A DNA stretch of 45,078 nt from Synechococcales cyanobacterium bin31.maxbin.ball.101 (GTDB lineage Bacteria > Cyanobacteriota > Cyanobacteriia > Leptolyngbyales > Leptolyngbyaceae): positions 1 through 45,078 of the forward strand of contig JAAFJU010000025.1 of assembly GCA_013298165.1 (NCBI GenBank), written 5' to 3'. The notes below the pieces were generated by a model. It was not told where the DNA came from. It worked only from the letters and a program-made list of their open reading frames with translations, and searched no databases. The position numbers and the translations under genes were made by a program. Shown in pieces: positions 9,013-28,891 of the stretch. Numbering within the stretch: the stretch's first letter is position 1; the number at the start of each line of letters is the position of its first letter.

Positions 9013-9055
9013 GAATCTTTCGCTAGAGACAAGTATCTTTAGTTGAGTAGAGAGA

Positions 9056-9085
9056 AGCCCCCAGTCTTACGACCGGGGGCTTTTT
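9056..9085 (+). terminator. Intrinsic terminator of psbA
   Basis: AGCCCCCAGTC (9056-9066) pairs with GACCGGGGGCT (9071-9081), with one internal A/C mismatch and a four-base loop. It runs into TTTTT. This is a textbook rho-independent terminator 43 bases after the psbA stop codon. Confidence 0.93.
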
Positions 9086-9201
9086 AATTTGTAGACTCAT
9101 ATTTTTATCCCGTATAAAAACATCCTGCTACGATATATTGGTGCAGTTCATCTTTGTCCATTGTCAAACTCTGGTCAGAATAGTTATAGGCAGCTATTTT
9201 T

Positions 9202-10446
9202 ATGAAGATTGCGATCGTCAATCAACCCTGGGGAGATCTGAGTCCTCCGAATCCATCTGGGTCCATTCCGATTTTGATTTATGAGACCGCGCAGAGACTT
9301 GCTAAAGAAGGTCATCAAGTGACGGTCTACTCTCGAAGTAAATGGAAAAAGACAGAAACAATTTACGAAGGCGTCTGTTATCGCTATATTCCTGTTTTTC
9401 TAGATAAATTTGTTAATAAATTACTGTCTAAGGTCATCCTCTGGGAGTCACTCAGGCCCACCTTTGCGTCATTTGTGACTTCATTTTTTTATGGGCTACA
9501 AATCTCGTTAGATTTGCGAGGTAAACAGTACGACTGGGTTCATATTCATAATTTTACGCAGTTTATTCCCACGATTCGTTGGATGAATCCCAGCATTCGA
9601 ATTTTGCTCCAGATTCATTGTGAATGGCTGACTAAACTCGATTACAAAATGATCAACGATCGGCTCCAATCGACTGAACTCATCCTTGGTTGTAGCGATT
9701 TTATTATGGATGATGTTAAAAAGAGGTTTCCGCATTTCGCGGATCAATGTCACACATTATTCAATGGTGTTAATACGTCCTACTTCACTCAAGGTTCCAG
9801 TCAAGATAACGGCACTGGAGATCTCACCCATCCCACGATTTTATATGTCGGGCGGGTCTCTCCAGAGAAAGGGATCCACACCTTGCTGCAAGCGTTTGAA
9901 ATCATTCATAGCAAAATCCCTAATGCTCAGTTAAAACTCATTGGTCCCCCCGAAGTATTGCCCTATGAGTTTTTGATTGGGTTGGATGATGATCCTAAGA
10001 TTCTGGCCTTAGGTGAGTTTTATCCCAATGAGAAGTGGGCTAGTTATTTATCAGACTGGCAACGATCGAAACCTGCGAGTCAAAATGTCACCTTTGTTGG
10101 CAATGTAGACTACTACGAATTACGAACCTATTATCAAACAGCCGATCTCTTTGTTTTTCCTTCCATTTGTGATGAAGCCTTTGGGATGCCTGTTGCGGAA
10201 GCGATGTCCTCTGGGCTTCCGATCGTTGTTGCTAAGGCTGGAGCTTTACCTGAATTAGTCGGACATGGGACCCATGGTTGGGTCACGATCGCGGGTTCTG
10301 CAACGGATTTGGCCGAGACAACTATTCAGGTTTTACAGTCTCCTGATGAAGCAAGACGCATTGCGAAATTAGGCCAAATCAAGGCGACTGAAGTGTTTGA
10401 TTGGGAGCCTGTGATTCAACGACTTATTAAACTTTATCAGGCATAA
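9202..10446 (+). CDS. GT4-family glycosyltransferase
   Basis: The 414-residue protein has the two-lobe GT-B layout of glycosyltransferase family 4. The N-terminal lobe begins MKIAIVNQPW and contains a Gly/Pro acceptor loop (NPSGSIPI). The C-terminal nucleotide-sugar lobe begins near LYVGRVSPEKGIHTLLQAF and has the EX7E donor-binding motif as EAFGMPVAE. It would retain anomeric configuration and act in the cytoplasm, building polysaccharide, lipopolysaccharide or a glycolipid; donor and acceptor cannot be read from sequence. It is followed after three bases by a PIG-L-type deacetylase, so the two are almost certainly co-transcribed and probably act in sequence on one glycan. No signal peptide is present. 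Confidence 0.88.
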   Translation: MKIAIVNQPWGDLSPPNPSGSIPILIYETAQRLAKEGHQVTVYSRSKWKKTETIYEGVCYRYIPVFLDKFVNKLLSKVILWESLRPTFASFVTSFFYGLQISLDLRGKQYDWVHIHNFTQFIPTIRWMNPSIRILLQIHCEWLTKLDYKMINDRLQSTELILGCSDFIMDDVKKRFPHFADQCHTLFNGVNTSYFTQGSSQDNGTGDLTHPTILYVGRVSPEKGIHTLLQAFEIIHSKIPNAQLKLIGPPEVLPYEFLIGLDDDPKILALGEFYPNEKWASYLSDWQRSKPASQNVTFVGNVDYYELRTYYQTADLFVFPSICDEAFGMPVAEAMSSGLPIVVAKAGALPELVGHGTHGWVTIAGSATDLAETTIQVLQSPDEARRIAKLGQIKATEVFDWEPVIQRLIKLYQA

Positions 10447-10449
10447 CTC

Positions 10450-11295
10450 ATGAATCCAATCCAAACAATTCGTCAAGTTCTCCGTCAACGAGTTCATCAA
10501 AAACTCAGTCGTCAACTAGAACCCATGAGTTCAGCAGACTATGCCGCATCTGCGATCGTCTTTGTCCCCCATGAAGATGATGAAACGTTGGCCTGTGGCG
10601 GCAGTATTATTCGCAAAAAACAAGCGGGAGCCAATGTCAAAATTGTTTTTCTCACTGATGGTCGAGCTTCCCATGCACATTTGATGGATTGGCAAAAGCT
10701 GAGTGCAATGCGTCAACAAGAGGCGATTAATGCGTGCAAAGTGCTTGGGGTTAATCCAGAAGATGTGACGTTTTTAGGGTTTCCAGATAATGATTTAGTT
10801 AGTCACGAAGCGGCTGCGATTGAACAAGTCATTGCAATTTTAGAAAAAGAGTCGCCGCAACAGATTTTTATGCCCTATCACCGAGAGCCATTGTTCATTC
10901 GGGATCATCGAGCTACCTATGACATTGTGTCGCAGGCCGCGCGGCGAGTGGGTCAATCGGTGACGGTCTATGAATATCCCGTCTGGTTTTGGTGTCATTG
11001 GCCTTGGATGAAGTTGGTCTGGTATCGTGGGAAGCCCTTAGGCAATCTCAAAATGGCGATTCGATCGATTCAACGGGGTTTTAGTTTTGGGCTTTACCCT
11101 TGGAAAGAATTCACTACCTTTAGCGATATCAGCCAGGTTTTAGATCAAAAACAAACGGCTTTAGCTTGTCACCATTCACAGGTAAATAAACAGCTCGATC
11201 GATCGGATTGGGCGATTTTGGCAGAGGTTTCGGACGGGGATTTTTTGGATTGTTTTGCACAGCCACAGGAAATCTTTTATCGTCATCAACTTTAG
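10450..11295 (+). CDS. PIG-L (LmbE-like) family deacetylase
   Basis: The 281-residue protein has the zinc-binding motif of the PIG-L/LmbE fold as PHEDDE (residues 40-45), where the usual form is (A/P)HPDDE. A second-shell RDHRAT motif further on supplies another ligand. The family removes N-acetyl groups from GlcNAc-containing substrates such as GlcNAc-phosphatidylinositol, GlcNAc-inositol or antibiotic and glycan intermediates. It begins three bases after the glycosyltransferase stop codon, so the pair probably adds an N-acetylhexosamine and then deacetylates it. The residues before the motif (about 1-32) are basic and helical, but no clear signal peptide is seen. The substitution of Glu for Pro in the motif is unusual but keeps all metal-binding residues. 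Confidence 0.87.
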   Translation: MNPIQTIRQVLRQRVHQKLSRQLEPMSSADYAASAIVFVPHEDDETLACGGSIIRKKQAGANVKIVFLTDGRASHAHLMDWQKLSAMRQQEAINACKVLGVNPEDVTFLGFPDNDLVSHEAAAIEQVIAILEKESPQQIFMPYHREPLFIRDHRATYDIVSQAARRVGQSVTVYEYPVWFWCHWPWMKLVWYRGKPLGNLKMAIRSIQRGFSFGLYPWKEFTTFSDISQVLDQKQTALACHHSQVNKQLDRSDWAILAEVSDGDFLDCFAQPQEIFYRHQL

Positions 11296-11319
11296 ACCGA
11301 TTGAATTAGGACTCACAAT

Positions 11320-12228
11320 ATGGAACGCAATATCGATCGGTTTCGAGCTTGTCTGGTGGGACTGGCGGCGGGGGATGCCGTGGGGACGACGGTGGAGTTT
11401 CGAGCGAGGGGTTCTTTTGAACCGATGACGGATATGGTGGGTGGTGGACCGTTTGATCTTGAAGTGGGGCAATGGACGGATGATACCTCCATGGCGCTTT
11501 GTTTGGCGACGAGTTTACTCGACTGTGGAGAATTCAATCCCATGGATCAAATGGATCGCTATAGCCGTTGGTATCGTGAGGGCTATCTCAGTAGCAATGG
11601 CGAATGCTTTGATATTGGTAATACTGTGTTTTTAGCATTGGCCGATTATCAAAAAACACGAAATCCCTACAGTGGTTCAACCCATCCAAATACGGCTGGA
11701 AATGGTTCGATTATGCGATTGGCTCCGATTCCGATGTTTTATCATTACGATCGGGATTTGATTCAAGTGCGATCGGTAGAGAGTTCGCGGACGACCCATG
11801 GGGCAGCGGAATGTTTGGATGCTTGTCGATGGTTTGGGGATGTGTTGTTTCGGGCGTTGGCGGGGGCGAGTAAGGCGGAGATTTTGGCCTTTCAGGCTGC
11901 TGTGAAGCTTGAGACGCCTGCGATTCGGTCGATCGCACGGGGTGACTACATGAGCAAATCCATAGATGAGATTCGCGGTTCAGGGTATGTGGTGGCGAGT
12001 TTGGAAGCGGCGCTGTGGTGTTTTTTTAATACCGATAGTTTTGAAGAGGCGATTTTGATGGCAGCGAATTTGGGGGAGGATGCGGATACGACGGCGGCGG
12101 TCTGCGGTCAAGTGGCGGGTGCGCACTATGGTATGGCTGGCATTCCGGAAGGTTGGCGATCGAAACTCACGATGCTTCAGGAGATTACAACGTTAGCCGA
12201 TCGGCTCTATGAGATTGCCTGCGTTTGA
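11320..12228 (+). CDS. ADP-ribosylglycohydrolase family protein
   Basis: The 302-residue protein shows the ADP-ribosyl-hydrolase (ARH/DraG) fold. It has GLAAGDAVG near the N-terminus, the magnesium-binding WTDDTSM motif (Thr53, Asp54, Asp55), NGSIMRLAPI, and the C-terminal GEDADTTAAVCGQVAGAHYG motif that supplies further metal ligands. Members release ADP-ribose from modified proteins, as DraG does for dinitrogenase reductase, or act on other ADP-ribosyl compounds. No nif gene or ADP-ribosyltransferase lies nearby, so the target is unknown. It follows the deacetylase by 24 bases and may be transcribed with it, although a functional link is not obvious. It converges on the flavoprotein gene, with seven bases between the two stops. 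Confidence 0.9.
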   Translation: MERNIDRFRACLVGLAAGDAVGTTVEFRARGSFEPMTDMVGGGPFDLEVGQWTDDTSMALCLATSLLDCGEFNPMDQMDRYSRWYREGYLSSNGECFDIGNTVFLALADYQKTRNPYSGSTHPNTAGNGSIMRLAPIPMFYHYDRDLIQVRSVESSRTTHGAAECLDACRWFGDVLFRALAGASKAEILAFQAAVKLETPAIRSIARGDYMSKSIDEIRGSGYVVASLEAALWCFFNTDSFEEAILMAANLGEDADTTAAVCGQVAGAHYGMAGIPEGWRSKLTMLQEITTLADRLYEIACV

Positions 12229-12235
12229 TTTTTTG

Positions 12236-13273
12236 CTAACTTTTTACCAACAACTGCTCAGCCAGCGCCAATCCCGATAGAAACGCACTTTCAACCCGAT
12301 CGCCCCCGCACCAATCGCCAATGCAATACAGCGGTGAAGCGGTGGTGGCACTTAAAAATTTAGAGTCGATCGGATTGATGGCAAAGGCATATTTCCAGCG
12401 ATGTAATTGCAGCAGTTCCGGTTTTGCAATCCAAGGCATGTTTAAAACTTCAGAGGCCCGATCGCACAACTGCTGCGCCACTGTATTTAAATCCGTTGAA
12501 TCAAACTGCTGCGCAGCAAAATTAGAATTGCTTTGAATAATCATTGTTGTTTGTTCTGGATTGATTTGTTTAGTACTATCAAACCCAATCCACCCCAGAA
12601 TCTCATCCTCCAAACAAGTCACCCCTTGTAGCTCGGCTCCCCCAGAATTGGGGGCTGGGGGGCGGTTCGCCAGTGCTTCTGCACGCTGTGAATAAACCCC
12701 GATCGCTGTCAAACAAGGCGCAAATTCAACCGATTGGATCGACTCTACAAACTCAGCATTTGCAATCCCTTGGACTAACGGCAATGCCTGCGGTGCGGGA
12801 ATTGCCAAGATCACAACATCCGCCGTCAGATCAAACTCTGGGTTTTGGCTTGTGAGTTGCCAGCCCTGCTCGATCGGCCTAATCGATTGAATCTGTTGAT
12901 TGAGTTCAAGGGTCAAATCTTTTGCCAATGCCTTAGCGATCGCCGTTGCCCCCTTGGGTGCTGCATAGCGAGGCTGGGGGCGTGGGTCGAGCTGCAATCC
13001 CGCTGCCGAAAGCTGATGGAGTTGATCCGTCCACACCGTCAACACGCCATTCAGCACCAAGTCTTGAATCAATGCCGAAAACCGATCGTCCTTCGGCTTC
13101 AAATAACAAACCCCATGGTCTGCATGAGTCTCCCCCAGCCTGCGCGTCGCTAGGCGTCCTCCCAATCCCCTTGACTTATCAATGACCACGACATCCCGAC
13201 CCGCCGCCTGAAGTTCCCGCGCACAGACCAGCCCCGCCATTCCCGCACCGACGATCGCAATTTCATGATGCAT
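12236..13273 (-). CDS. Renalase-like FAD-dependent oxidoreductase
   Basis: The 345-residue protein starts with a Rossmann dinucleotide motif GAGMAG (residues 8-13), an FAD-ribose acid in VVIDKS, and GLGGRLATRR, the combination seen in renalase-like and amine-oxidase-like flavoproteins. The C-terminus (YCIGDWCGGDRVESAFLSG) is the second FAD-binding segment. Substrate is unknown; bacterial renalases oxidise off-pathway dihydronicotinamides, but I cannot show that here. Notable is an in-frame intergenic-type repeat (12639-12673) translated as LANRPPAPNSGG, probably a surface insertion. The start ATG (13271-13273) is 62 bases from the preferred start of the divergent gene, so the two may share a promoter region. 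Confidence 0.85.
   Translation of the reverse strand: MHHEIAIVGAGMAGLVCARELQAAGRDVVVIDKSRGLGGRLATRRLGETHADHGVCYLKPKDDRFSALIQDLVLNGVLTVWTDQLHQLSAAGLQLDPRPQPRYAAPKGATAIAKALAKDLTLELNQQIQSIRPIEQGWQLTSQNPEFDLTADVVILAIPAPQALPLVQGIANAEFVESIQSVEFAPCLTAIGVYSQRAEALANRPPAPNSGGAELQGVTCLEDEILGWIGFDSTKQINPEQTTMIIQSNSNFAAQQFDSTDLNTVAQQLCDRASEVLNMPWIAKPELLQLHRWKYAFAINPIDSKFLSATTASPLYCIGDWCGGDRVESAFLSGLALAEQLLVKS
12639..12673 (-). repeat. Copy of the C-rich repeat inside a coding sequence
   Basis: The 35 bases beginning CCCCCAGAATTGGGGGCTGG and ending GCGGTTCGCCAG closely match one arm of the intergenic elements at 617-659 and 4700-4736. Here the repeat lies within the flavoprotein gene without breaking the frame and adds Pro/Asn/Gly-rich residues. 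It is a case of a repeat being exapted as, or tolerated in, protein sequence. Confidence 0.85.
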
Positions 13274-16663: not shown

Positions 16664-16756
16664 GGTTAAGAGAGGATTTGAAGGGTTGTTGGTAAGTACA
16701 GTCTGTCAGACAGGTTTTGAGACTCTAGCTATTATGACATTTTCAACCCACGATCG

Positions 16757-16806
16757 ACGATCGGTTCCGGACTGGAATCGGGATTTAAATTTAAAAGAGG
16801 CATTCA
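16757..16806 (+). pseudogene. 50-bp fragment of the class D beta-lactamase-like gene
   Basis: Bases 16757-16806 match 25770-25819 at 48 of 50 positions and in the same orientation, encoding RSVPDWNRDLNLKEAF as in the beta-lactamase-like gene. Similarity ends abruptly on both sides. The surrounding frame (16638-16868) carries nothing else recognisable, so this is a remnant, not a gene. The rest of the 374-base gap between the aldehyde dehydrogenase and the PKD gene is AT-rich without other ORFs. Confidence 0.9.
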
Positions 16807-17037: not shown

Positions 17038-18807
17038 ATGGGAACAGAAAATAATATGCGCCTCAGGGCCTCAGGGCCGATCGATTCCGACACTGGATTT
17101 CCACTGTGGTTTGAAGATACAAATGGTGTGCGGTTAGAACTCGGTTTAAATCGAGATCCGCTCAATCCTGATCTGCTCATACCCGCGATCGGCGAGATGC
17201 AAGATCCGGCTGCCCCACTTAGTTTTCCAAACAACTTTCCCGATGAAAGCTTTTACTTCCTAGCCGAAGCCGAATTACAGGTCGGAGGCAATGGCACCAT
17301 TGGACGAGCAAGAGTGATCTTGGCCTTGGAAGCGGCTTTTGGCGGTACAGGCACCCCTAAACAAGGCGCGAATGTTGTCTTTGCCCGGATTCGGGTGCGA
17401 ATGGACAAACTCATTCCCGGTGAACGCTATAAAGTCATCCATCCCTATGGTGTAATTGACGGTGAAGATTTACAAGCCGACGATCGGGGACGTGTCTTCT
17501 ACACCGCAGATCTGGGGATTGTAGAGGGCGATCCTACGGCAGCCCTTCGGACTGGACAAGTGGCTCCTTTTTTAGTGGGGACCCTTGCAGCACCAACCGG
17601 GTATATCGGCGATGGTGCCACAGAACAGATGATCACGGGCAGTCCGTTCAATACCAATTTTGTTGTGATTGAAGGGGCAAGGATTCGTGATGGCGGTGGG
17701 GACGCTGACCCCACGGAACCCGAGAATCGCGATCGCATCTGGACCAATACCTTCACCGTCCAAGGCAGGCGTGCAAAACGGACGGGTGCATGGCTAGAGG
17801 GCGCAACCTATAGCAAATCTAGCGGAGGCTATGTGCTGACGGTACAAGCGCGGAGCTTAATGGGTCAGGACTTGCGCTTAGTCGCACCGGGAATCCATTT
17901 TAAACTCGATGAGGGACAGAAAGCGTTCTACACAGGTCTCGGTCAAGCCGTGACGCTACCGAGCAATGCCAAGCTGATCAATGTCACCGATCAGCCGCCG
18001 ACCCATTTTCCCGTGACATTTACCGATCGAGTGATTGTCGAATCTGCGGTGCATGACCGGACGACGGGCACCCTCACCGTGATCGCTCGATCGTCTGACC
18101 CCAGTGCCGTGCTAACCATCCCGCAACTCACCTTAACGCTGACCACCGTGCCCCAATCCTTCTACATCGGGAGCGCGTCTCCAGCCGAGCTGATCGTCAG
18201 GTCCGATCGCGGCGGCGAAGGTCGGCAGCATGTCGTGGTGCGAGGCACACCTGCGGCCAACACCCCTCAGGTCAAAGCCCTCATTGTCCCACCCCCGTCC
18301 CAAGTCTTTGCAGAAGCGGCCCTCACCCTAGATGGGAGTGCGTCTCTGGGGGCTACCCGTTTCACCTGGAGTCAAACATCCGGTACTCCTGTGACGCTGA
18401 CGGGTGCCAATACGAGTCAAGTTAGCTTCACGCCCACCTTAGCCGGGGACTATGGCTTTAAGTTGATTGTGCAAGGGGACAGCAGCATTCAGGCGGATAC
18501 CTCGATCGTCCTATCCGTCAAGCCCAAGCTAGGTCTAGACACCTTGACCCTGACGCGACAGGAGTATCGCACCAGTACTCGCCAATTTCGGATCGAGGGC
18601 AATGTCAATCAATTGCCCAACGTCATTTTGGTCAAATTCCGGGACAAAGAAGAACAGGCCATTCCTGATATTAATGGGGATTGGTCCGTGCGTCGCACGC
18701 TGCGGGAATCTGAAGTGGACCTAGTCCCAGCACCGGGTACTACCATCGAGGTTCGCTCCAAGCGCGGCAGCATCAATCCCTCTCCCGCAATCAGAATTAG
18801 AAATTAG
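17038..18807 (+). CDS. PKD-domain protein, first gene of the giant multicopper oxidase cluster
   Basis: The 589-residue product is not a recognised enzyme. Residues 1 to about 245 form an unidentified, probably beta-rich domain with many Gly, Asp and Pro. About 250-405 holds further beta-sandwich-like sequence. About 413-496 reads as a PKD/Ig-like domain (LTLDGSASLGATRFTWSQTS, then TLAGDYGFKLIVQG). About 500-589 is a final small beta-domain (LTRQEYRTSTRQFRIEGN). No signal peptide, lipobox, membrane helix or zinc motif is seen, which is odd for a PKD protein, usually extracellular. The stop is followed after 11 bases by the DUF1326 gene, whose AGGAG ribosome-binding site overlaps this stop, so they are co-transcribed. 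A role as scaffold or substrate partner of the oxidase is inference from position only. The start at 17038 is the longest choice; the ATG at 17056 is possible. Confidence 0.7.
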   Translation: MGTENNMRLRASGPIDSDTGFPLWFEDTNGVRLELGLNRDPLNPDLLIPAIGEMQDPAAPLSFPNNFPDESFYFLAEAELQVGGNGTIGRARVILALEAAFGGTGTPKQGANVVFARIRVRMDKLIPGERYKVIHPYGVIDGEDLQADDRGRVFYTADLGIVEGDPTAALRTGQVAPFLVGTLAAPTGYIGDGATEQMITGSPFNTNFVVIEGARIRDGGGDADPTEPENRDRIWTNTFTVQGRRAKRTGAWLEGATYSKSSGGYVLTVQARSLMGQDLRLVAPGIHFKLDEGQKAFYTGLGQAVTLPSNAKLINVTDQPPTHFPVTFTDRVIVESAVHDRTTGTLTVIARSSDPSAVLTIPQLTLTLTTVPQSFYIGSASPAELIVRSDRGGEGRQHVVVRGTPAANTPQVKALIVPPPSQVFAEAALTLDGSASLGATRFTWSQTSGTPVTLTGANTSQVSFTPTLAGDYGFKLIVQGDSSIQADTSIVLSVKPKLGLDTLTLTRQEYRTSTRQFRIEGNVNQLPNVILVKFRDKEEQAIPDINGDWSVRRTLRESEVDLVPAPGTTIEVRSKRGSINPSPAIRIRN

Positions 18808-18818
18808 GAGCGGTTATT

Positions 18819-19589
18819 ATGATGGGCATAGCAACTAACAATCAACTCAAAGGATGGTTTCTAGAGTGTTGCGATTGTTTCACAATTTGTCCTTGTTGGG
18901 TGAGCGAACGTCCCGATGAAGACCATTGCAGCGCGCTCTACGTTTGGACGTTCAGTGAGGGTGCCACTATTGAGGGTCATGATATTAGCCATAAATCAAT
19001 TGTTGCGGCGACCTTCCATAGCGGCAGTAGTCCTGAAAAACCAGCGGAGACTGCGGCTGAGAATGACGAACCGGATCTATTTGGATTGATCGATCGGTTC
19101 CTATTCGATCCTGAAGAACAGGAGGAGGAGGACAATGGGCCACCCCCTGCCAGTAACAAGCAAGCCGCCATTTATGTCGATGCAACCCTCGACAAAGCCA
19201 CTCAACAGTTGTTGCTGGATGCATTTTCCGGTAAAACGATCGCCCGTTTAAAGAGTTTGGAGCGGCTGATGGGTACCGTGGTGCATTCTGGACCTGCCCG
19301 CATTACCCACAGCAAAAGTAATGGGCAATGGGAGGTCACGGTGGAAGTCAATGGCAGCCGCATCGCCCATGCCAATGGTCTCGAAGAACCCCTGGAAGGA
19401 CGCTCAAAACCTATCAGTCTCTATGACACAGCGCTTCATGACGAACTGGGCATTGAGGCATCAGAAGCAGCGGTGGTGCAGAAGGTGGCCCGCTTTGAAT
19501 TGGCGGTTTCTCCGCTGCCGATCGCGCCATTTGTGTACTCTGGACGATCGGGTTTAGCGGCTAAATTTAACTATAGCGGTAGGTCCTAA
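18819..19589 (+). CDS. DUF1326 protein with N-terminal Cys cluster
   Basis: The 256-residue protein begins like DUF1326 members, with a Trp-Phe-Leu-Glu strand and the cysteine cluster ECCDCFTICPCW. Cys17, Cys18, Cys20, Cys24 and Cys26, plus Cys37 in DHCSALYVW, make a plausible metal or redox site. The family is of unknown function and is often encoded next to DUF2182 membrane proteins, as here. Residues about 70-110 form an acidic, disordered-looking insertion (DPEEQEEEDNGPPP) that I do not associate with the family. No signal peptide is present. AGGAG lies nine to thirteen bases upstream of ATG 18819; ATG 18822 is an alternative. Two bases separate its stop from the DUF2182 start. It could deliver copper to, or reduce, the oxidase encoded downstream; that is inference. 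Confidence 0.85.
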   Translation: MMGIATNNQLKGWFLECCDCFTICPCWVSERPDEDHCSALYVWTFSEGATIEGHDISHKSIVAATFHSGSSPEKPAETAAENDEPDLFGLIDRFLFDPEEQEEEDNGPPPASNKQAAIYVDATLDKATQQLLLDAFSGKTIARLKSLERLMGTVVHSGPARITHSKSNGQWEVTVEVNGSRIAHANGLEEPLEGRSKPISLYDTALHDELGIEASEAAVVQKVARFELAVSPLPIAPFVYSGRSGLAAKFNYSGRS

Positions 19590-19591
19590 CC

Positions 19592-20425
19592 ATGGCCAAA
19601 AGCAATTCCTTTAGCATGACGCCAGTGCGGCTACCATCGATTAATCAACTGACTGCCGTTGTAATCGTAATTAGTTCTGTAGCTTGGCTATTAATGGTCT
19701 TAATGCATGGCAGTCAGCATGTCTCCTTCCAGCTTGGACATCATGGCGTGGGAGATGGGCAATGGTTGACGGGCTGGTTCATCATGGTGCTAGCGATGAT
19801 GTTACCACCAGCATTGCCATTTCTACAGACGATGCTCCGATCGACCCAGGGTTTACCGCACCAGCAGGCTTTATTAGTGACGACGGCGGTGGTCTTTATC
19901 GCCACTTGGACCGCCACAGGAATCGCCTTAGTTGCCATGGGTCATGTCCTCACTCGCCTGGGAGGCACAATGCCTTGGCTCGTCGATCGTCCTACGGTGG
20001 TGAGTGGTCTCGCCGCCCTTCTCGTGGGGATCTATCAGCTCTCTCCCGTGAAAGAGGCTTGTCTCACGGCCTGTCGTAGTCCGACCGCGATGCTGCTGCT
20101 GCTCTGGGATGATGACGCTCCTTGGCGATCGGCTGTGGTGATTGGACTCCGTTATGCCGCTGTTTGTGTCGGTTGTTGTTGGACCTTGATGCTATTGACG
20201 CTCATTGTGGGCGCGTTTGTCTTACCCCTGATGGTCGTCGTCTCCGTCATCATGCTCCTGGAGCGTCTGCTGCCTTCAGTGCGTCCCCTCGTGCCCCTGC
20301 AAGCAGCCTTCGCCTGTGCCCTAGGAATTTTATTACTACTTGGCTCCCTGCCACCCGGTTTAGCGCTAGAGGGAACCGGGCAGCCTATTCATCCCCATCA
20401 CTCGACACCATTACTCGATCGGTAA
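19592..20425 (+). CDS. DUF2182 polytopic membrane protein (predicted metal-binding)
   Basis: The 277-residue protein has about seven hydrophobic helices: LTAVVIVISSVAWLLMVLMH, WLTGWFIMVLAMMLPPALPF, LLVTTAVVFIATWTATGIAL, VSGLAALLVGIYQLSP, VIGLRYAAVCVGCCWTLMLL, IVGAFVLPLMVVVSVIMLLE and AFACALGILLLLG. The MVLAMMLP and KEACLTACRSP motifs are the conserved signatures of the DUF2182 (COG5486) family, and the CxxxC pair plus Met residues suggest a metal or redox site. The ribosome-binding site GGTAGG lies within the end of the DUF1326 gene. Its TAA stop is in the first of four 12-bp repeats leading to the oxidase gene, and both genes are in the same reading frame. Function is unknown; a membrane partner for copper supply or electron transfer is inference. 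Confidence 0.85.
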   Translation: MAKSNSFSMTPVRLPSINQLTAVVIVISSVAWLLMVLMHGSQHVSFQLGHHGVGDGQWLTGWFIMVLAMMLPPALPFLQTMLRSTQGLPHQQALLVTTAVVFIATWTATGIALVAMGHVLTRLGGTMPWLVDRPTVVSGLAALLVGIYQLSPVKEACLTACRSPTAMLLLLWDDDAPWRSAVVIGLRYAAVCVGCCWTLMLLTLIVGAFVLPLMVVVSVIMLLERLLPSVRPLVPLQAAFACALGILLLLGSLPPGLALEGTGQPIHPHHSTPLLDR

Positions 20426-20467
20426 GTAACTCGGTAAGCAACTCGGTAAGCAACTCGGTAAGCAGCT
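20420..20467 (+). repeat. Four 12-bp tandem repeats between DUF2182 and the oxidase start
   Basis: Four copies of CGGTAAGCAACT (first and last with one or two changes) fill exactly the 48 bases up to the oxidase ATG. Each contains an in-frame TAA; the first is the stop codon of the DUF2182 gene. Each also offers a GGTAAG that can act as a weak ribosome-binding site, the last one five bases before the ATG. Confidence 0.95.
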
Positions 20468-23400
20468 ATGACTATCCTGACCTCCGCTCAACGCCAATAT
20501 CATGTGATTGCGTTCTCGATGCCCATTGTCTATACCCTGGACGGCGATCATGACCCCAATGGAATGGCCTACGTGCTCAAACCCGTTTCTATTCTTCTGC
20601 AATGGGCCAAGGAACGCTGGCAGGATGACGATCGATTGCTGCCGCGTTTGCATACGCGCCGTCAACGGGCACAACTAGTGATTGATGGATTAGAGCGGCT
20701 GGAAATGATGCTCGATCGTCTACGCCATGGCTCAACGGATGATAAAAATCTACTGAGCGAACTCAAAAATCGGGAGGAACAACCGGAATACAGCGAAGCT
20801 GAAGATCGAGACCGTTACGCTTATCCGCGCCAAGGGGCACGATCGATGGCCGTCCGTCTGAATGTCCAAAACCAGCTTGATGAGCTGCGCATCGCCCTCA
20901 CCGATCTGCAAGACTTAGATGGACCCAACAGTTGGCATCAACCTATTAAGCAGGATGTCGCAGGGGTCGAACCAGAGGCGCTCGATCCCACCACCGCCCC
21001 TAATCCCATCCGCCTAATCACGCTGACACCAGACCAACGGCGGGCTTGGCGTCAAGAATGGATGACCCAAGCGAAGATGCTCGATCAAGCCATTGAGCAA
21101 TGGTTTACTCGCTGTGATGCGGACCCGAAACGGCGCTTTAATGCCGAAATATTATCAAAAGAATCGGGCATTCCTGAAGCATGGGTGAAGCGGTTATTGC
21201 TCAATGATCATCAAGCTAAAAATCATGGAGGCAAGCCCTACGATCGATTCAACCCCATGAAACCGATCCCAGCCTTACGCCCATTGGTTCTTCGTTGCTG
21301 TCAGGGTGAGACCGTCAAAATTAAATTCGAGAATTCATTGCGCTCACGTCGGGTCGGATTTCACGTTCAAGGGGAAGGCATGTCCACATCTGAAGGGGCG
21401 GGCGTGTGCTATGCCGATGGTGCAGCGATCGGCAAAAATGATGACAGTACCTGTGCGTCTGGAAAAACCATGACCTTCTACTACACCGCTAAGCACGAAG
21501 GGGTGTGGCCCATTAACGACTTGGCCGATGTCCGAGGTGGTCCAGACGGTACCAATGCCCACGGACTCTTTGGGGCGCTCATCGTCGAGGCCAAGGGTAC
21601 GCAGTGGTGCGATCCGGAAACAGTTGAAAAGGCCACGAATATCCCAGGGAATCGACTTCCCGGTGAACTCACCCAGGCTCCCTGGTGCAGTTTGATGGAT
21701 GTGGACATCATTCCTGCGGCTGAAAATATCAATCACCCTCAGCATCAAGCCTTTATTGATTTTCACTGCGATACCGTACCCCGCAGCTTCCGCGAATTCA
21801 CCATTTTTATCCACGATGAACCCGAAGTCCATTCTGGTCTACATACGATCGGTGAGCATAGCATTATGCCCTTGTCCTATCGGGCAGAACCCATGCCGAA
21901 TCGTCTGCCCCACCGGATGCGGACCCATGCCGCTGCAACCCATTTAAAACCCTTGCCCTTAAAGGATAAGGTCGATCGAACGGCCGTGACTTGGAAACTG
22001 GGCGACGAGTTGGATGAACAGTTCTGGACGGCCCGCGATTCAACGGGCAACTATCTGGAGCGAGTCGCGGGTGAAGAGCAACATCACAGTTCATGGTTAT
22101 TTGGGGATCCGATCACCCATGTTTTGCGGGCCTATGCGGGCGATCCTTGCCGGGTGCGATTGATTCATGCGGGCGTGAAAGAAACCCATCTTTTCCATCT
22201 CCATGTTCACCAATGGCGAGCCGTGGCCTCGGATACGGCTCAACCCTCGGTGCATCGTTCTAATCATCAAGGATCGCAACTTCTCGATTCCATTACCATT
22301 GGACCGCAAAGCGCTATGACGATCGATCCGCTGTATGGATCGGGGAGTCGCCAACATGCGATGGGCGATATTATTTGGCATTGTCATCTCTATCCCCATT
22401 TCCATCATGGAATGTGGGGGCTTTGGCGGAGTTTCGATCGATTAGTGGATGGCAACAGACCTTATCCAGACGGCTCCTATTGCCCGCCGTTGAATCCACT
22501 CCCCGGACGCAAACCGATCGCCCCCACAGCACAGCAACCGGGATTCCCCTGGTTTATCGATGGGGTCTTTCCGATGAAATCCCCGCCGCCCCCTGTGGGC
22601 GATCGGACGCCCTTGAATGGTCGCCGCATTCTCCTGAAAATGGGACCTGCCAGTCGGCTAGAACAAGCCGCCATGCCAGAACGCTGTCGCACGGGAGAAA
22701 GTTCTGGGGCCATCTTTGTGGATCTTGATACCAAGGCAGAACAGTGGAATCAAGCCGCAGGCTTACCCAAACCTCGAATCATTTCCTACGACGCAGAGGT
22801 GAAAACATCTGAGATTCAATACAATGTCGATGGCTGGCACGATCCGCTGGGACATCACTATCGATTAATCAAAGTCGAGATTCGAGAATGGTCAGACAGC
22901 GAGAATCAATACAAGTCCACCTATTCAGAAACCTTCCCCGAGGACCCGGATCAGAATCCGTCGCCGTTTTACCCTCGTGCCAACCACGGTGACATCGTAG
23001 AGTGGCGGCAGCATAACCGTCTAACGTCCTTCCCCGCAGATGCCTTCGATCTCGCACAAGCGCCTGTAGAATGCGGGTTACATGTTCACCTCGTGAAATT
23101 CGATCCGCTGTCAGCGGATGGATCGGCGACAGGCTGGAATTATCTCTCAGGGGCCAGTTGTCGTGAAGCGGTTGGAGCCGATCGCAGCGGTGAATTGCGG
23201 ACCATCAGTCGTCATCGTTGGGTGGTGGATGAAGAATTTGGACCCTGCTTTTTCCACGATCATCTATCCGCTAATTATCGGCAAAAGCATGGTTTGTTTG
23301 CGGCATTAATTGCCGAACCCCACGCTTCTCAATGGAGTCGGGTAGACGATCAAAGTTTGGCCGCCTGGAGTGAACCAGAAGCGGTGATTATTCCGCCTGA

Positions 23401-25381
23401 GAGCAGCGGTTTAACGCCCTTCCGGGAAGCTTGTTTGGCGATCGCCGATTTTGTCACCCTGCTGGATAAAGACGATCGTGCGCTGAATCCGCCCTCCACG
23501 CTCTCGGGCGACGATGATCCGGGCGGAATGGCGGTCAACTACCGCAATGCACCCCTCACTTTCCGAGGATCCGACCCGTCGCAATGGTTTAGCTCTAGCG
23601 TCCGCAGTCGGCCTAATTTTGCGGGTGTCCCCGGTGATCCCGATACCCCCGTGATCCACACCTATCCGGGTGAACGGCTGCGAATTCGATTAATTCAAGG
23701 GTCCCACGAAGAGCAACATGGATTTGCCCTGCATGGGATGCGCTGGCGACGAGACTGGGGCAATGCAAAATCCCCCCTCGTTAATCAACAGACCCTCGGC
23801 ATTTCCGAAGCCTTTACGCTGGATATTAATCCGGCGGATGCTTCTGCCTACGGAGTCGGGGACCATCTTTGGCACTTCTGCACAGCGGATGACCTGTGGC
23901 TGGGGTGTTGGGGATTAGTCCGATCGCTGGTCCCTATTCCAGAAAATTTTGCCCGCTTTTCTCCCTTACCTGATTTAAAACGCTCTCCGGCTGATGCGCT
24001 AAAAGCGATGCGTGACGCTCAGCAAATGACCGATCTCCCGCCCCCAGATCCCGCCAACACCCGCACATTTGTGGTCGTTGCTCAGCGCACAGAGCATCTA
24101 TACAGTGGCACAGCCTTGACCGATCCTTGGGGCCTGATTTACCGGACCGTGAACTATGACCATCAAGCGGAAATAGAAGCCGCGCTCACTCAAGCGATCG
24201 CCCAAGATTTCTGGGAGGTTGATGATGAGCTTGTCGAAACGACGGATCAGCCCTTGGTGCTGCGGGTTCGGCGGGGTGAATGGGTCAGAGTGATTTTGAT
24301 CAACGATCTGTTGGACGTAGATGAGAATGATCCCAATCAAGACTCGGATGGTGCCCTTGAATTCGGCGTTGAACCCTCCCCACCCAGGCTGCCGCTAGAG
24401 CATCTCGATGACTTAGCCCGACCCGATCGGCGCACCGTCAGCACCAGGGTTTCCCTCCACGCGAGCCTCCTGCGCTATGACGTCAACCAATGTGACGGCT
24501 CCTATGTGGGACGTAATGTTGATAGCACCGTAGCACCTTGGGTCCGATCCAGTGAACATGTTGGCTCACATATGGCGATGGGGGAAATTCCAGGTGCCGT
24601 CGTTCATCGACCCGACCATGAGGGCCATCGCAACTGGCGAGAATATTGGTGGTATGCCGATCAAGCGCTAGCGCCCGAGAGTGGTTACGACGGGCCAGGA
24701 CAAGTCTGTTATCTCTATGACCTGGCTGATATTCGCAATCATCGCCATCATGGCTTGATAGGTGCGCTGATCGTCGAACCGGAAGATGTCACGCCATTTG
24801 CCACAGGTTCAACCTCCATCCTGGACTCGATCGGACGAATCTGGAATATGGAAGGCAATGGATGGTCGGGCGTCAATGCCGAAATCTGCGTTAATGGCGA
24901 TGTGATCGCCTACGAAACGGCTGTTTTTGTCCAGAACGGCTTACGCTTCTTTGTCAATGGTAATCCTGACTTTCCGATGCCCGATGTCAATCCCAAGGAT
25001 GACCCGGAAGACAGTGGCCAAGCCGGGATTAATTACCGCAGTCATCCCGTGCATCGGGGCGTGGTTGCCAAATCCCCCACCCCCGTGTTTCCGCTACTAG
25101 AAGCAATGACCGGGGATAAAATCTGGCTGCGGGTGATTGGTGCAGGGGATAAACCTCGCCAACAGACCATCAGTGTCCATGGTTGTGCTTGGCCAGCCGC
25201 AAGCTGGGTATCCCAGAGTGACTGGACAAGTACTGTGACCGGACTCTCGCCCTGTCGTACCGAAACGATGGTGATCACCTTGTTCCATGCAGGTGACTAT
25301 GCCGTCCGATCGGGTGCCTTCAGATGGGCAGCGGAACAGGGTGTCTGGAGCAGCCTGCGGGCAAAAGACTGGTATTTTTAA
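20468..25381 (+). CDS. Giant multi-cupredoxin multicopper oxidase (MnxG/MofA-like architecture)
   Basis: The 1637-residue protein begins with an unusual domain (GDHDPNGMAYVL at 26-37, then a charged helical stretch to about 260). At least six cupredoxin-like segments follow, at about 265-378, 405-480, 550-655, 740-955, 1030-1155 and 1255-1637. All four multicopper-oxidase ligand motifs are present: HxxHxH as HLFHLH (574-579), the type-1/type-3 motif HCHLYPHFHHGM (638-649), and two HxH motifs, HVH (872-874) and HDH (930-932). In common laccases the HxH motifs come first, so the order is permuted. A degenerate type-1 copy, WHFCTADDLWLGCWG, begins at 1135. Giant oxidases of similar size, MnxG and MofA, are linked to Mn(II) oxidation; substrate here is unknown. 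No signal peptide is visible. The cluster with DUF1326 and DUF2182 suggests dedicated metal handling. Confidence 0.88.
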   Translation: MTILTSAQRQYHVIAFSMPIVYTLDGDHDPNGMAYVLKPVSILLQWAKERWQDDDRLLPRLHTRRQRAQLVIDGLERLEMMLDRLRHGSTDDKNLLSELKNREEQPEYSEAEDRDRYAYPRQGARSMAVRLNVQNQLDELRIALTDLQDLDGPNSWHQPIKQDVAGVEPEALDPTTAPNPIRLITLTPDQRRAWRQEWMTQAKMLDQAIEQWFTRCDADPKRRFNAEILSKESGIPEAWVKRLLLNDHQAKNHGGKPYDRFNPMKPIPALRPLVLRCCQGETVKIKFENSLRSRRVGFHVQGEGMSTSEGAGVCYADGAAIGKNDDSTCASGKTMTFYYTAKHEGVWPINDLADVRGGPDGTNAHGLFGALIVEAKGTQWCDPETVEKATNIPGNRLPGELTQAPWCSLMDVDIIPAAENINHPQHQAFIDFHCDTVPRSFREFTIFIHDEPEVHSGLHTIGEHSIMPLSYRAEPMPNRLPHRMRTHAAATHLKPLPLKDKVDRTAVTWKLGDELDEQFWTARDSTGNYLERVAGEEQHHSSWLFGDPITHVLRAYAGDPCRVRLIHAGVKETHLFHLHVHQWRAVASDTAQPSVHRSNHQGSQLLDSITIGPQSAMTIDPLYGSGSRQHAMGDIIWHCHLYPHFHHGMWGLWRSFDRLVDGNRPYPDGSYCPPLNPLPGRKPIAPTAQQPGFPWFIDGVFPMKSPPPPVGDRTPLNGRRILLKMGPASRLEQAAMPERCRTGESSGAIFVDLDTKAEQWNQAAGLPKPRIISYDAEVKTSEIQYNVDGWHDPLGHHYRLIKVEIREWSDSENQYKSTYSETFPEDPDQNPSPFYPRANHGDIVEWRQHNRLTSFPADAFDLAQAPVECGLHVHLVKFDPLSADGSATGWNYLSGASCREAVGADRSGELRTISRHRWVVDEEFGPCFFHDHLSANYRQKHGLFAALIAEPHASQWSRVDDQSLAAWSEPEAVIIPPESSGLTPFREACLAIADFVTLLDKDDRALNPPSTLSGDDDPGGMAVNYRNAPLTFRGSDPSQWFSSSVRSRPNFAGVPGDPDTPVIHTYPGERLRIRLIQGSHEEQHGFALHGMRWRRDWGNAKSPLVNQQTLGISEAFTLDINPADASAYGVGDHLWHFCTADDLWLGCWGLVRSLVPIPENFARFSPLPDLKRSPADALKAMRDAQQMTDLPPPDPANTRTFVVVAQRTEHLYSGTALTDPWGLIYRTVNYDHQAEIEAALTQAIAQDFWEVDDELVETTDQPLVLRVRRGEWVRVILINDLLDVDENDPNQDSDGALEFGVEPSPPRLPLEHLDDLARPDRRTVSTRVSLHASLLRYDVNQCDGSYVGRNVDSTVAPWVRSSEHVGSHMAMGEIPGAVVHRPDHEGHRNWREYWWYADQALAPESGYDGPGQVCYLYDLADIRNHRHHGLIGALIVEPEDVTPFATGSTSILDSIGRIWNMEGNGWSGVNAEICVNGDVIAYETAVFVQNGLRFFVNGNPDFPMPDVNPKDDPEDSGQAGINYRSHPVHRGVVAKSPTPVFPLLEAMTGDKIWLRVIGAGDKPRQQTISVHGCAWPAASWVSQSDWTSTVTGLSPCRTETMVITLFHAGDYAVRSGAFRWAAEQGVWSSLRAKDWYF

Positions 25382-25431: not shown

Positions 25432-26286
25432 ATGAATCGACGATTTCATTTGCCTCTGGTGTTCCTGACGATCGGGATCTGTCTGTGGTCTGTGGTGTTA
25501 CATTGGACACCACCCGTCTTCAGCCATTCAACCCCGATCGCCCAAGCCCTCTCCCAACCTGACTTTCAACGCCACTTCAAAGCTTTGGGTGTTGAAGGTT
25601 CGATCGTGATTGCAAATCTGAAGGGCGATCGGATCTATCAACATAATCCCCAACGCAATCAAACCGCCTTTCTCCCTGCATCGACGTTTAAAATTCTCAA
25701 TTCATTGATTGCTTTAGAAACGGGAGTTATTTCTGATGAGTTAGCTATTCTAACGTGGGATGGCGTTCAACGATCGGTTCCGGACTGGAATCGGGATTTG
25801 AATTTAAAAGAAGCATTCAAACGATCGGCGGTTTGGTTTTATCAAGTGCTAGCCCGTCGTGTGGGACATGAGAAAATGCAAACTTGGGTGACGAAAGCCG
25901 CCTACGGGAATCAGACGATTGGGGATAAAAAGGAGATTGATCAGTTTTGGCTAACGGGAAAACTCCGCATTACACCTCAAGAGCAGATTGATTTTCTACA
26001 ACGCCTTTATACTGAGAAACTTCCCTTCTCTAAACGATCGCTTTCGATCGTCAAAGACATCATGATTGCCGAGAAGACCCCCGAGTATACCCTGCGAGGA
26101 AAGACGGGCTGGGTCGGTTTTGGAGAGGCGGCAATGCCACAAATGGGGTGGTATGTCGGGTATGTGGAGCGTGGGAATGAGGTTTACTTTTTTGCGACGA
26201 CCCTTGATATCCGAAACGATAAGACAGATCCAGCCGCACGAATTGAAGTTACTCGCCGTTGTTTAAAGGATTTGGCATTGTTGTGA
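25432..26286 (+). CDS. Class D (OXA-like) beta-lactamase family protein
   Basis: The 284-residue protein has an N-terminal signal sequence (hydrophobic LPLVFLTIGICLWSVVL) for export to the periplasm. It then carries the class D serine beta-lactamase motifs: STFK with nucleophile Ser84 and Lys87, SAV (132-134), YGN (158-160), FWLTG (172-176) and KTG (224-226). Length and spacing are typical, so it is probably active as a penicillin-recognising hydrolase or a related sensor; resistance cannot be inferred from sequence alone. It starts 51 bases after the giant oxidase and may be read through from it, although a functional link is not evident. A 50-bp piece of this gene (codons for 114-129) is duplicated at 16757-16806, on the far side of the oxidase cluster. 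Confidence 0.9.
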   Translation: MNRRFHLPLVFLTIGICLWSVVLHWTPPVFSHSTPIAQALSQPDFQRHFKALGVEGSIVIANLKGDRIYQHNPQRNQTAFLPASTFKILNSLIALETGVISDELAILTWDGVQRSVPDWNRDLNLKEAFKRSAVWFYQVLARRVGHEKMQTWVTKAAYGNQTIGDKKEIDQFWLTGKLRITPQEQIDFLQRLYTEKLPFSKRSLSIVKDIMIAEKTPEYTLRGKTGWVGFGEAAMPQMGWYVGYVERGNEVYFFATTLDIRNDKTDPAARIEVTRRCLKDLALL

Positions 26287-26374: not shown

Positions 26375-28891
26375 ATGGATGAGCAACTGATTGCTGCGAT
26401 CGAATCCAAGGATTTACAGCGGGTTGAAGAATTGTTGTCTGCTGGAGCAAATCCTAATGCCAGACACAATGGTCAGACGCTTTATCAACTTGTGCCCCAT
26501 GGTGCAGATGAGATTAAGTGTGCCTTGATTGATGCGGGAGCAGATGACCCAGACCTCTGGAGTTCTCTGGTGTGGGTGATGAGTACCGGACGGATTGAGA
26601 CGGTTCGGACCTTGATTGCTAAAGGGGCCGATATCAATGTTTCCACCTATTCTGGAACGCCGATTCAAGTGGCGGCGCGGAGAGGACAGGCTGAAATTGC
26701 CGAGTTACTGATTGAAGCAGGCTGTGATGTTGATGCGGGAAGTAGTGTGAGTACACCGCTCATCTCAGCGATCGAACAAGGTCATTCCGACATTGCCTTA
26801 AAACTCCTGCAAGCGGGTGCAGATCCAAATCGTAAACCCAGCTTTGGGGGTGACAGTCCGATCGCTCTAGCCTCTGCCCAAGGTCATGCAGCGGTGGTTC
26901 GAGCGTTGATTACCGCTGGTGCAGATCTGAATGCAAAGCTCGCTAGCATAAGGCTTAAACATCGTGCAACGCAACAAACAGACGATGTAGAGCCAGAAAT
27001 AGCCGTTGATCCATTTCCGGTAATTCTGACGGCGCGTTGTGGTCATGGGGAGGCATTGGCAACGCTCTTGGAACTGGGAGCCGATGCCCATCAGAAAGAT
27101 GGGGAAGGATTCTCTGCCTATGACTGGGCGACCCGAAATGACGATCAAGCGGTGCTGGCAGTTCTTCATCAATTTGGGATTACGGAAACGCGCTTTACGG
27201 CTGAGGAACTTCTACTGCTTTCTGCACAAAACGGGAATCTCGACATTCTTCAGTCTGCACTCAATCAAGGTGCCGATGTGAATGCACGGGACGATCGCCG
27301 AAAAACTCGTGGAAAAACCGCTCTCATGTTGGCTGCGATCGCTGGACATTTGCAGATTGTACAGACGTTATTATCCGTAGGGGCAGATCCTAATCTAACG
27401 GACCAAGGTGCGAATGCAGAAATGGTATCAGAGGATTTATTGGAACATGTGGGCTTAGAATCGCTGGTTGATGGCGGATATTGTTTTGGGCGATCGGCGA
27501 TCATCGCTGCTGCTGCGGTCGGACAAACCGAAATTATTCAAACCCTAATTCAGGCAGGAGCAAACCCGAATGATACCGATGTAATCGGTGCAACTCCCCT
27601 CTCGTTAGCATCCGAGAACTCTCACCTCGCCACGGTTCAGGTTTTAGTGAATGCCGGGGCAGCGATTAATCAAACGGCAATCTTGGGCAATACACCTTTC
27701 CTGCTTGCCTGTGCAAAAGGTGCGTTTGAGGTTGCTGAGTTTCTGGTTAATCATGGGGCGGATATTACGATCGTCAATCGCGATCGGGAAACGGCTTTAA
27801 TGAAGGCCGCAACACTTGGAAATTTACCGTTAGTTCGTCTTTGCATTGGACAAGGCGAAACGGTCAATACCATTTCGTCTGAAGGCCAGACTGCGCTGAC
27901 CCAAGCGGCTGGGGCAAGTCACCATGTTCAATTTGATGAAAACGATCCGAATTCTGGTCGTAGCGGAAGCTTGGAATATCGGGATGATGGCTGTTGGGAA
28001 TATTGCCCACTGCCTGAAGATCAAATTATTGAAGTTGTTCAATTCCTCTTGCAATTTGGCGCAGATCCAAACCTTCTGGGTTGGGAAACGACATCCTTAG
28101 CTAAAGCAGTTGAAAATAATCACCTCCGATTAGTTCAAATCCTGTTGTCGGCGGGTGCGCGCTTGGATATCCGCGATCGTAGTGGGGATACGGCTGTATC
28201 CAGGGCACAACTCTATCGAAGGCAAGAGATTTTATCTCTTTTCCGTGACCACGTGGGGACGGATCTCAGTGAATTTGAAGCTCGTGATAATGAGGATACC
28301 GATCGGGATGAAGACGATCGGTGGGGGGAAGAATTACCTGAGCCAGATTTTTCAGAATTCGCCCAAGATCCGAACTACCAACAGGCAATCCAGCAACTTG
28401 CCGAACGCTGTGGCAGTCAACCGATCGTCCATGATGACCGTCCTGGCTGGGTTTCTCTCCACGTCGATACGAAACGTCGTAAAGATCTTGATATCGATGA
28501 CCTACAACGGGAATTTCTAGAACAAGGCTATTTTGTGTATCTCCCAGGCTCTTACTATGGTGATGGTCCAGAGAGAGTTTGTATCCTGCCGACCACTGAT
28601 AAATATGATGCCATTGCCTTACATCAGACCAATGGTTGTAATTATGGCGTCGGTCCTGGGTATGTCACCCAATGGCTGAAGGATCTTGAGGAAACGCAAC
28701 CATTTGTATTGACCTGTATTGCCCACGATACCCTGTCAGGGAGGTTTCTGACCCCGATCGAAGATCCCGAAGGATTGGCAGAATCGATGTATGAATTCTG
28801 TCCTGATTTGGTCGATCAAGGCGTTGGGTCGGTTGAACGGTTAGTCGAAAATCTGACGGCTGGAGATAGGCTATATTTCTGGTGGGATTAG
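26375..28891 (+). CDS. Ankyrin-repeat protein with C-terminal DUF4253-like domain
   Basis: The 838-residue soluble protein consists of about 15 ankyrin repeats over residues 1-630. They show the usual pattern, for example GTPIQVAARRGQAEIAELLI, TPLISAIEQGHSDIALKLLQ and ALMLAAIAGHLQIVQTLLSV. A strongly acidic linker follows at about 630-662 (EARDNEDTDRDEDD). The C-terminal 170 residues (VYLPGSYYGDGPERVCILP, YDAIALHQTNGCNYGVGP and LYFWWD at the very end) resemble DUF4253 domains, a tentative match. Ankyrin repeats mediate protein contacts; no enzymatic motif is seen. One repeat, at about 520-545, carries an insertion with a WEYCP segment. No signal peptide is present. The gene converges on the PIN toxin gene across a perfect 20-base palindrome. 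The start ATG at 26375 leads directly into the first repeat. Confidence 0.87.
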   Translation: MDEQLIAAIESKDLQRVEELLSAGANPNARHNGQTLYQLVPHGADEIKCALIDAGADDPDLWSSLVWVMSTGRIETVRTLIAKGADINVSTYSGTPIQVAARRGQAEIAELLIEAGCDVDAGSSVSTPLISAIEQGHSDIALKLLQAGADPNRKPSFGGDSPIALASAQGHAAVVRALITAGADLNAKLASIRLKHRATQQTDDVEPEIAVDPFPVILTARCGHGEALATLLELGADAHQKDGEGFSAYDWATRNDDQAVLAVLHQFGITETRFTAEELLLLSAQNGNLDILQSALNQGADVNARDDRRKTRGKTALMLAAIAGHLQIVQTLLSVGADPNLTDQGANAEMVSEDLLEHVGLESLVDGGYCFGRSAIIAAAAVGQTEIIQTLIQAGANPNDTDVIGATPLSLASENSHLATVQVLVNAGAAINQTAILGNTPFLLACAKGAFEVAEFLVNHGADITIVNRDRETALMKAATLGNLPLVRLCIGQGETVNTISSEGQTALTQAAGASHHVQFDENDPNSGRSGSLEYRDDGCWEYCPLPEDQIIEVVQFLLQFGADPNLLGWETTSLAKAVENNHLRLVQILLSAGARLDIRDRSGDTAVSRAQLYRRQEILSLFRDHVGTDLSEFEARDNEDTDRDEDDRWGEELPEPDFSEFAQDPNYQQAIQQLAERCGSQPIVHDDRPGWVSLHVDTKRRKDLDIDDLQREFLEQGYFVYLPGSYYGDGPERVCILPTTDKYDAIALHQTNGCNYGVGPGYVTQWLKDLEETQPFVLTCIAHDTLSGRFLTPIEDPEGLAESMYEFCPDLVDQGVGSVERLVENLTAGDRLYFWWD

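Follow-up and report, generated by a model that had tools for sequence, protein, structure and literature searches.

The giant multicopper oxidase encoded in this cyanobacterial contig belongs to a co-inherited unit, with a core of three genes (for a DUF1326 protein, a PpoB2 protein and the oxidase) and a common fourth gene for a PKD-domain protein. The cluster lies on the forward strand at positions 17038-25381 of the window, by which we mean the whole 45,078-nucleotide stretch that was analysed, and it joins a known oxidase superfamily to a new, conserved accessory set. On balance, we think it probable that the cluster is a horizontally mobile operon, in which a six-domain oxidase of the MnxG superfamily would be loaded with copper by its own DUF1326/PpoB2 pair.

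The four genes follow one another on one strand with gaps of 11, 2 and 42 bp: the PKD protein (gene 1, 589 residues) at 17038-18807, the DUF1326 protein (gene 2, 256 residues) at 18819-19589, the DUF2182 protein, now PpoB2 (gene 3, 277 residues), at 19592-20425, and an MnxG-type giant multicopper oxidase (gene 4, 1637 residues) at 20468-25381. These assignments come from the list of open reading frames and Pfam, with homology in addition for the oxidase, and all four start codons are consistent with the starts of their homologues. An earlier note on this DNA had given the same coordinates, strand and gaps, exact to the base. It had also described overlapping ribosome-binding sites, which we could recognize as a ribosome-binding-like GGAG overlapping the gene 1 stop and an AGGT where gene 2 ends, but not before the oxidase, where the spacer holds no clear site and is occupied by a 12-bp tandem repeat (TCGGTAAGCAAC, 3.8 copies, forward strand, 20419-20464) that takes in the end of gene 3. 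Variation in the length of this repeat could alter translation of the oxidase. None of the three intergenic gaps contains a terminator-like site, and we infer from the spacing and from the conservation described below that the four genes would be transcribed as one unit.

Conservation of the unit

Relatives of the cluster were gathered with the oxidase sequence alone (35 loci), so that the neighboring genes were not selected for. Within one oxidase clade, DUF1326, PpoB2 and the oxidase are adjacent, on the same strand and in the same order, at 27 of the 29 fully readable loci (the window and 26 others), and at a 28th locus (L003), which is cut by a contig edge, PpoB2 adjoins the oxidase. Intergenic gaps in the relatives are mostly between -4 and about 70 bp, the larger values being mis-set starts in GC-rich open reading frames. 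The PKD gene lies upstream at 21 of the 27 loci; at the other six (L012, L015, L018, L020, L023 and L032), we found no homologue of the PKD protein, and the recognizable upstream genes are unrelated. A neighborhood survey of this kind had been called for in the earlier note with all four genes in mind, and it upholds the order of DUF1326, PpoB2 and the oxidase, whereas the PKD gene proves dispensable. The only clade members with readable flanks and no partners are two Acidimicrobiales MAGs (L025 and L036), which have neither the adjacent pair nor a PpoB2 elsewhere in the assembled genome. The L036 oxidase (7941-12757 of that locus) is split over three reading frames, through either assembly error or decay; too broken for placement in a tree, it was assigned to the clade by its 60% identity.

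As controls, we read sister giant oxidases with several kb on both sides, in 13 stretches of Actinomycetospora-family genomes, six plasmid records and the chromosomal loci L033 and L034, which make 20 distinct loci after removal of one duplicate. Homologues of DUF1326, PpoB2 or the PKD protein were found near the sister oxidase at none of these 20 loci, compared with partner adjacency at 28 of 30 loci in the clade, L025 and L036 being the exceptions (Fisher 4.9e-12, a p value to be taken as a guide only, because some loci on both sides are closely related). Chance adjacency of the four genes is ruled out by these sister oxidases. In two trees, the cluster oxidases form a single clade with a support of 100, with L025 as the sole orphan inside it. 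Likewise, a single clade (support 100) holds the cluster PpoB2 proteins and separates them from 17 PpoB2 proteins that are not linked to an oxidase, and the distance matrices of the four proteins correlate pairwise at 0.75-0.85 (each p <=0.0005). There is no recurrent fifth gene, other flanking families being repeated only among close relatives. It is the combination of the adjacency, its absence from all 20 controls, an insert specific to the oxidase clade (see below), the separate PpoB2 clade, the correlated distances and the lack of any other recurring flank that leads us to regard the cluster as co-inherited.

The oxidase and its accessory proteins

The oxidase matches Cu-oxidase_2 and Cu-oxidase_3 in Pfam (6.6e-9 and 2e-7), and the one solved structure related to it by sequence is Bacillus MnxG (PDB 9bxa; phmmer E 7e-148), matched mainly over residues 258-385 and 535-1358 of 1637, with weak matches in addition. 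With 200.3 bits against the curated cut-off of 3100 for the MnxG equivalog (NCBIfam NF041487), it is to be read as an MnxG-type protein and not as a named MnxG. Its four copper motifs are intact and invariant across the clade, with slight variation at non-ligand positions inside them. They comprise, all on the forward strand, HxxHxH (residues 574-583, HLFHLHVHQW; 22187-22216) with ligands of the type 1, 2 and 3 coppers, HCHxxxHxxxxM (residues 638-649, HCHLYPHFHHGM; 22379-22414) with type 1 and 3 ligands, and an HxH motif, HVH (H872 and H874; 23081-23089), and an HDH motif (H930-H932; 23255-23263). The order HxxHxH, HCHxxxHxxxxM, HxH, HxH is that of six-domain MnxG-type oxidases and is identical in the Priestia mnx oxidase. 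In bacterial six-domain oxidases, the trinuclear site lies between domains 2 and 3 and the type-1 site in domain 2 (PMC3600357), and the motif order in our oxidase agrees with such an arrangement. Among the sister oxidases, that of a Pseudonocardia plasmid (L038, 6812-10582) has lost both the HCH motif (now RYAPHDRSGAW) and one histidine of HDH, and is therefore probably not a working multicopper oxidase.

What sets the clade apart is an N-terminal insert (residues 40-258; forward strand, 20585-21241), charged, leucine-rich and probably helical, which after the N-terminal GDHDPNG is 155-250 residues long in the cluster clade versus 0-47 in all others. This insert is a candidate docking site for partner proteins. 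Neither gene 1 nor gene 4 encodes a recognizable signal peptide, and a simple hydropathy scan found no signal-peptide-like segment or Tat motif in the oxidase or the PKD protein of any relative; the oxidase would then be cytoplasmic, or exported via a leaderless route.

Gene 3 contains PF09948 (forward strand, 19769-20332) at 139.5 bits against a gathering cut-off of 28.7 (E 1.6e-40). This family, formerly DUF2182, is now named “PpoB2, copper chaperone” in Pfam, which revises the initial description of genes 2 and 3 as two domains of unknown function. The cluster PpoB2 is polytopic, with several predicted membrane segments and with invariant residues C157, C161, C192, C195, C196, M65, M69 and M70. 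It is the only PpoB2 of the source genome, as is usual for the cluster PpoB2 in genomes that carry the cluster. From its family, gene 3 probably encodes a copper-transfer protein. The PpoB2 of Marinomonas takes part in copper transfer to the tyrosinase PpoB1 and not to the laccase PpoA (PMC2855505), so that service to a multicopper oxidase would be an extension of its role. The idea of a dedicated copper-loaded oxidation machine, advanced before the present analysis, agrees in its copper-loading part with a PpoB2 family of which one member has been published in copper transfer.

The DUF1326 protein (PF07040; 61.2 bits against a gathering cut-off of 25, E 1.8e-16) is predicted to be soluble. 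Its motif C-D-C-x3-C-P-C-W (C18-W27; forward strand, 18870-18899) is invariant in 27 sequences, as are H36, C37 and H67 together with the motif residues C18, D19, C20, C24, P25, C26 and W27. The structural model (pLDDT 85) resembles acetoacetate-decarboxylase-like barrels in VIA-align (Z 10-11.2 over ~168 residues at 3.8-4.6 Å, with unrelated rows at Z 5 and below), while the Foldseek TM is only ~0.35. The conserved cysteines and histidines suggest metal binding and not acetoacetate decarboxylase activity, and the protein is probably a Cu(I) carrier. We found no papers on DUF1326 in the literature searched, which lay mostly outside the subscription journals.

Gene 1 has a K319L-like PKD domain in Pfam (1.1e-8) at residues 426-493 (forward strand, 18313-18516; about 408-496 in the model), whose fold matches the PKD domains of AAVR/KIAA0319L and KIAA1837 at Z 11. 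A conserved N-terminal region of ~250 residues precedes the Ig-like domains, and the model shows successive beta domains, one of them a PKD domain. The N-terminal region has no sequence match in Pfam or the PDB, and the fold search barely covered residues 1-246. The protein is probably an accessory scaffold or adhesion subunit.

Put together, these features suggest the following course of events. The oxidase would carry a single type-1 copper and a single trinuclear copper cluster, through which electrons drawn one by one from a small substrate would reduce O2 to water. At the membrane, PpoB2 would handle copper via its conserved Cys and Met residues, and the soluble DUF1326 protein would pass it to the apo-oxidase via CDC-x3-CPC-W and its His/Cys site, possibly docking at the insert unique to the clade. 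The Ig/PKD scaffold of gene 1, as an accessory, may hold the enzyme or its product.

Substrate and role of the cluster

Judged from its sequence relatives, Mn(II) is the leading candidate substrate of the oxidase, ahead of Fe(II) and of phenols or aromatic amines, though we would put it at somewhat less than an even chance. The oxidase could then be, about as plausibly, one that turns Mn(II), or Mn(II)/Mn(III), into Mn oxides like MnxG; the cluster would be a second solution with other accessory proteins and hence a special case of the copper-loading reading. Among solved structures, only MnxG is matched by sequence, and around the copper sites the clade and the Priestia mnx-operon oxidase have many invariant positions in common (e.g. 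H449-D450, H539-H540, H574/H577/H579, H872/H874, H930 and H1425/H1427). The largest bacterial oxidases with a tested or proposed function, MnxG and MofA, are also tied to Mn oxidation (PMC8218464). Weighing on the other side, the score is far under the equivalog cut-off, no small genes like MnxE or MnxF lie among or beside the four genes, and we found no reported Mn oxidizer among the host strains.

Comparison with known systems sharpens this picture. MnxG needs the copper-binding partners MnxE/F for its expression and activity, and has been described as the sole characterized multicopper oxidase that requires accessory proteins for overexpression (PMC5622069). The Bacillus Mnx system (9bxa) shares with the cluster a homologous oxidase in which the four copper motifs are the same and follow one another in the same order, a leaderless N-terminus with GDHxPxG, and small adjoining accessory genes. 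However, these are MnxE and MnxF in Bacillus and DUF1326 and PpoB2 in the cluster, which adds the insert of ~200 residues at the N-terminus of the oxidase as well as the PKD protein. Pseudomonas putida MnxG and Leptothrix MofA are likewise giant multicopper oxidases of the Mn-oxidase type, with SCO-like or copper metallochaperone genes in their operons (PMC8218464); the mof operon of Rubrivivax, too, includes a putative copper metallochaperone (PMC8218464). Compared by description, these operons differ in having SCO, SurA and mofB/mofC, with no DUF1326 or PpoB2 reported. Yet another accessory set accompanies a superfamily oxidase of 2163 residues on a Roseomonas gilardii plasmid (L042, 5689-12180), which lies beside SCO-family and cytochrome c genes. 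In line with the earlier note, which knew of no such system, we found no description of a DUF1326/PpoB2 pair linked to a giant oxidase in our literature search, itself mostly outside subscription journals.

If phenols or aromatic amines are the substrates of the oxidase, as of a laccase-like enzyme of pigment formation or detoxification, PpoB2 may have been recruited in the same way as for the melanin-making tyrosinase. The sole tested PpoB2 partner is indeed a phenol oxidase, and in Marinomonas mediterranea, as in the cluster, the PpoB2 membrane protein is encoded in an operon with the copper oxidase that it serves (PMC2855505). The Marinomonas partner is, however, a tyrosinase and that of the cluster a multicopper oxidase (the Marinomonas PpoB2 is not part of our PpoB2 tree). 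With a copper-site architecture and a closest solved relative that are metal-oxidase like, and with phenolic-metabolism genes that never recur beside the cluster, we consider a phenol-oxidizing role rather doubtful.

It is also conceivable that DUF1326 and PpoB2 form a separate small-molecule or metal module that travels with the oxidase and delivers no copper to it. The earlier note had described the two as a recurring pair, and this pair mostly occurs in the absence of any oxidase. Among 96 alphaproteobacterial genomes, 13 have PpoB2, in most cases beside DUF1326, and a matching oxidase occurs among these 13 only in the already known cluster genome. By eye, ten PpoB2 loci outside the cluster share no obvious third gene; at one alphaproteobacterial locus (L139, 6037-7440), two tandem DUF1326 genes lie beside the PpoB2 gene. 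The prevalence of pairs with no oxidase points to a wider role for the pair, and the likeness of the DUF1326 model to acetoacetate decarboxylase (best Z 11.2, 3.8 Å, 168 residues; Foldseek TM ~0.35) would suit an independent module. Although the stand-alone pairs consist of the same adjacent families with the same CxC...CPC motif, they differ in having no oxidase or PKD protein nearby and a PpoB2 outside the cluster clade. Given the strict adjacency in four phyla and the correlated histories of one PpoB2 clade and one oxidase clade, we find mere co-travel unlikely. Copper detoxification, with the oxidase acting as a cuprous oxidase and the small proteins sequestering or handing over Cu(I), would suit the Cys-rich DUF1326 and PpoB2 and the metal-efflux or copper genes near some sister oxidases, but is improbable, as copper efflux ATPase, CopC/D and CusA families never recur beside the cluster and its proteins lack signal peptides, whereas the cuprous oxidases described so far are periplasmic.

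Returning to copper loading by the DUF1326/PpoB2 pair, we may tentatively picture a new, self-contained Mn- (or Fe-) oxidizing system: a leaderless oxidase acting in or from the cytoplasm, a DUF1326/PpoB2 relay that docks on the helical insert, and a PKD scaffold, passed among Actinomycetota, Alphaproteobacteria, Gemmatimonadota and an oxygenic phototroph. Mn-oxidase enzymes that can be produced for study are few, and a portable operon with its own probable copper-loading proteins would be a second, independent case beside MnxG. DUF1326 would gain a testable role, PpoB2 would be extended from tyrosinases to multicopper oxidases, and the cluster would flag possible metal oxidizers in phyla where genomes cannot yet predict the trait.

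Hosts, transfer and the flanks of the cluster

The cluster is found in Cyanobacteria, Alphaproteobacteria, Actinomycetota and Gemmatimonadota. Its actinobacterial hosts are Actinoplanes and kin, Actinomycetospora, Pseudonocardia, Kineosporia, Kocuria and Geodermatophilus, to which are added Novosphingobium, Sphingomonas, Pseudoroseomonas, a Gemmatimonadota MAG and a second cyanobacterial MAG. The oxidase occurs in 1 of 386 sampled cyanobacterial genomes, which is the source genome, and in 0 of 57 relatives. For each of the two other classes sampled, the frequency is about 1 in 300 genomes (the seed genome each time, with two distant matches not counted). The nearest relatives of the window oxidase come from a Pseudoroseomonas, an alphaproteobacterium, and from another cyanobacterium, a kinship that points to spread of the cluster by horizontal transfer. 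Vertical descent as a cyanobacterial gene is ruled out by the counts of 1/386 and 0/57 together with the Pseudoroseomonas kin. As for plasmids, the oxidase relatives that they carry are only 24-35% identical, and the cluster is absent around those whose surroundings were read.

Contamination of the assembly is unlikely, given that PsbA, the D1 protein of photosystem II, and a KaiB-domain histidine kinase are encoded on this contig as well, and that the cyanobacterial word CGATCG reaches 3.9-5.2 per kb in the cluster genes, close to the 5.2 per kb of the whole window. Downstream of the cluster lies an intact gene resembling class D (OXA-type) beta-lactamases (25432-26286; 286.7 bits against the NCBIfam class D cut-off of 250); 13 of 42 genomes in the family, among them the source genome, have homologues. 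A 56-bp piece of this gene (25764-25819) recurs before the cluster at 16751-16806 with 93% identity, so that the unit is flanked by a gene fragment on one side and the whole gene on the other, and the repeat is possibly a scar of the insertion of the cluster. Farther downstream, at 26375-28891, a gene encodes an ankyrin-repeat protein with a DUF4253 end.
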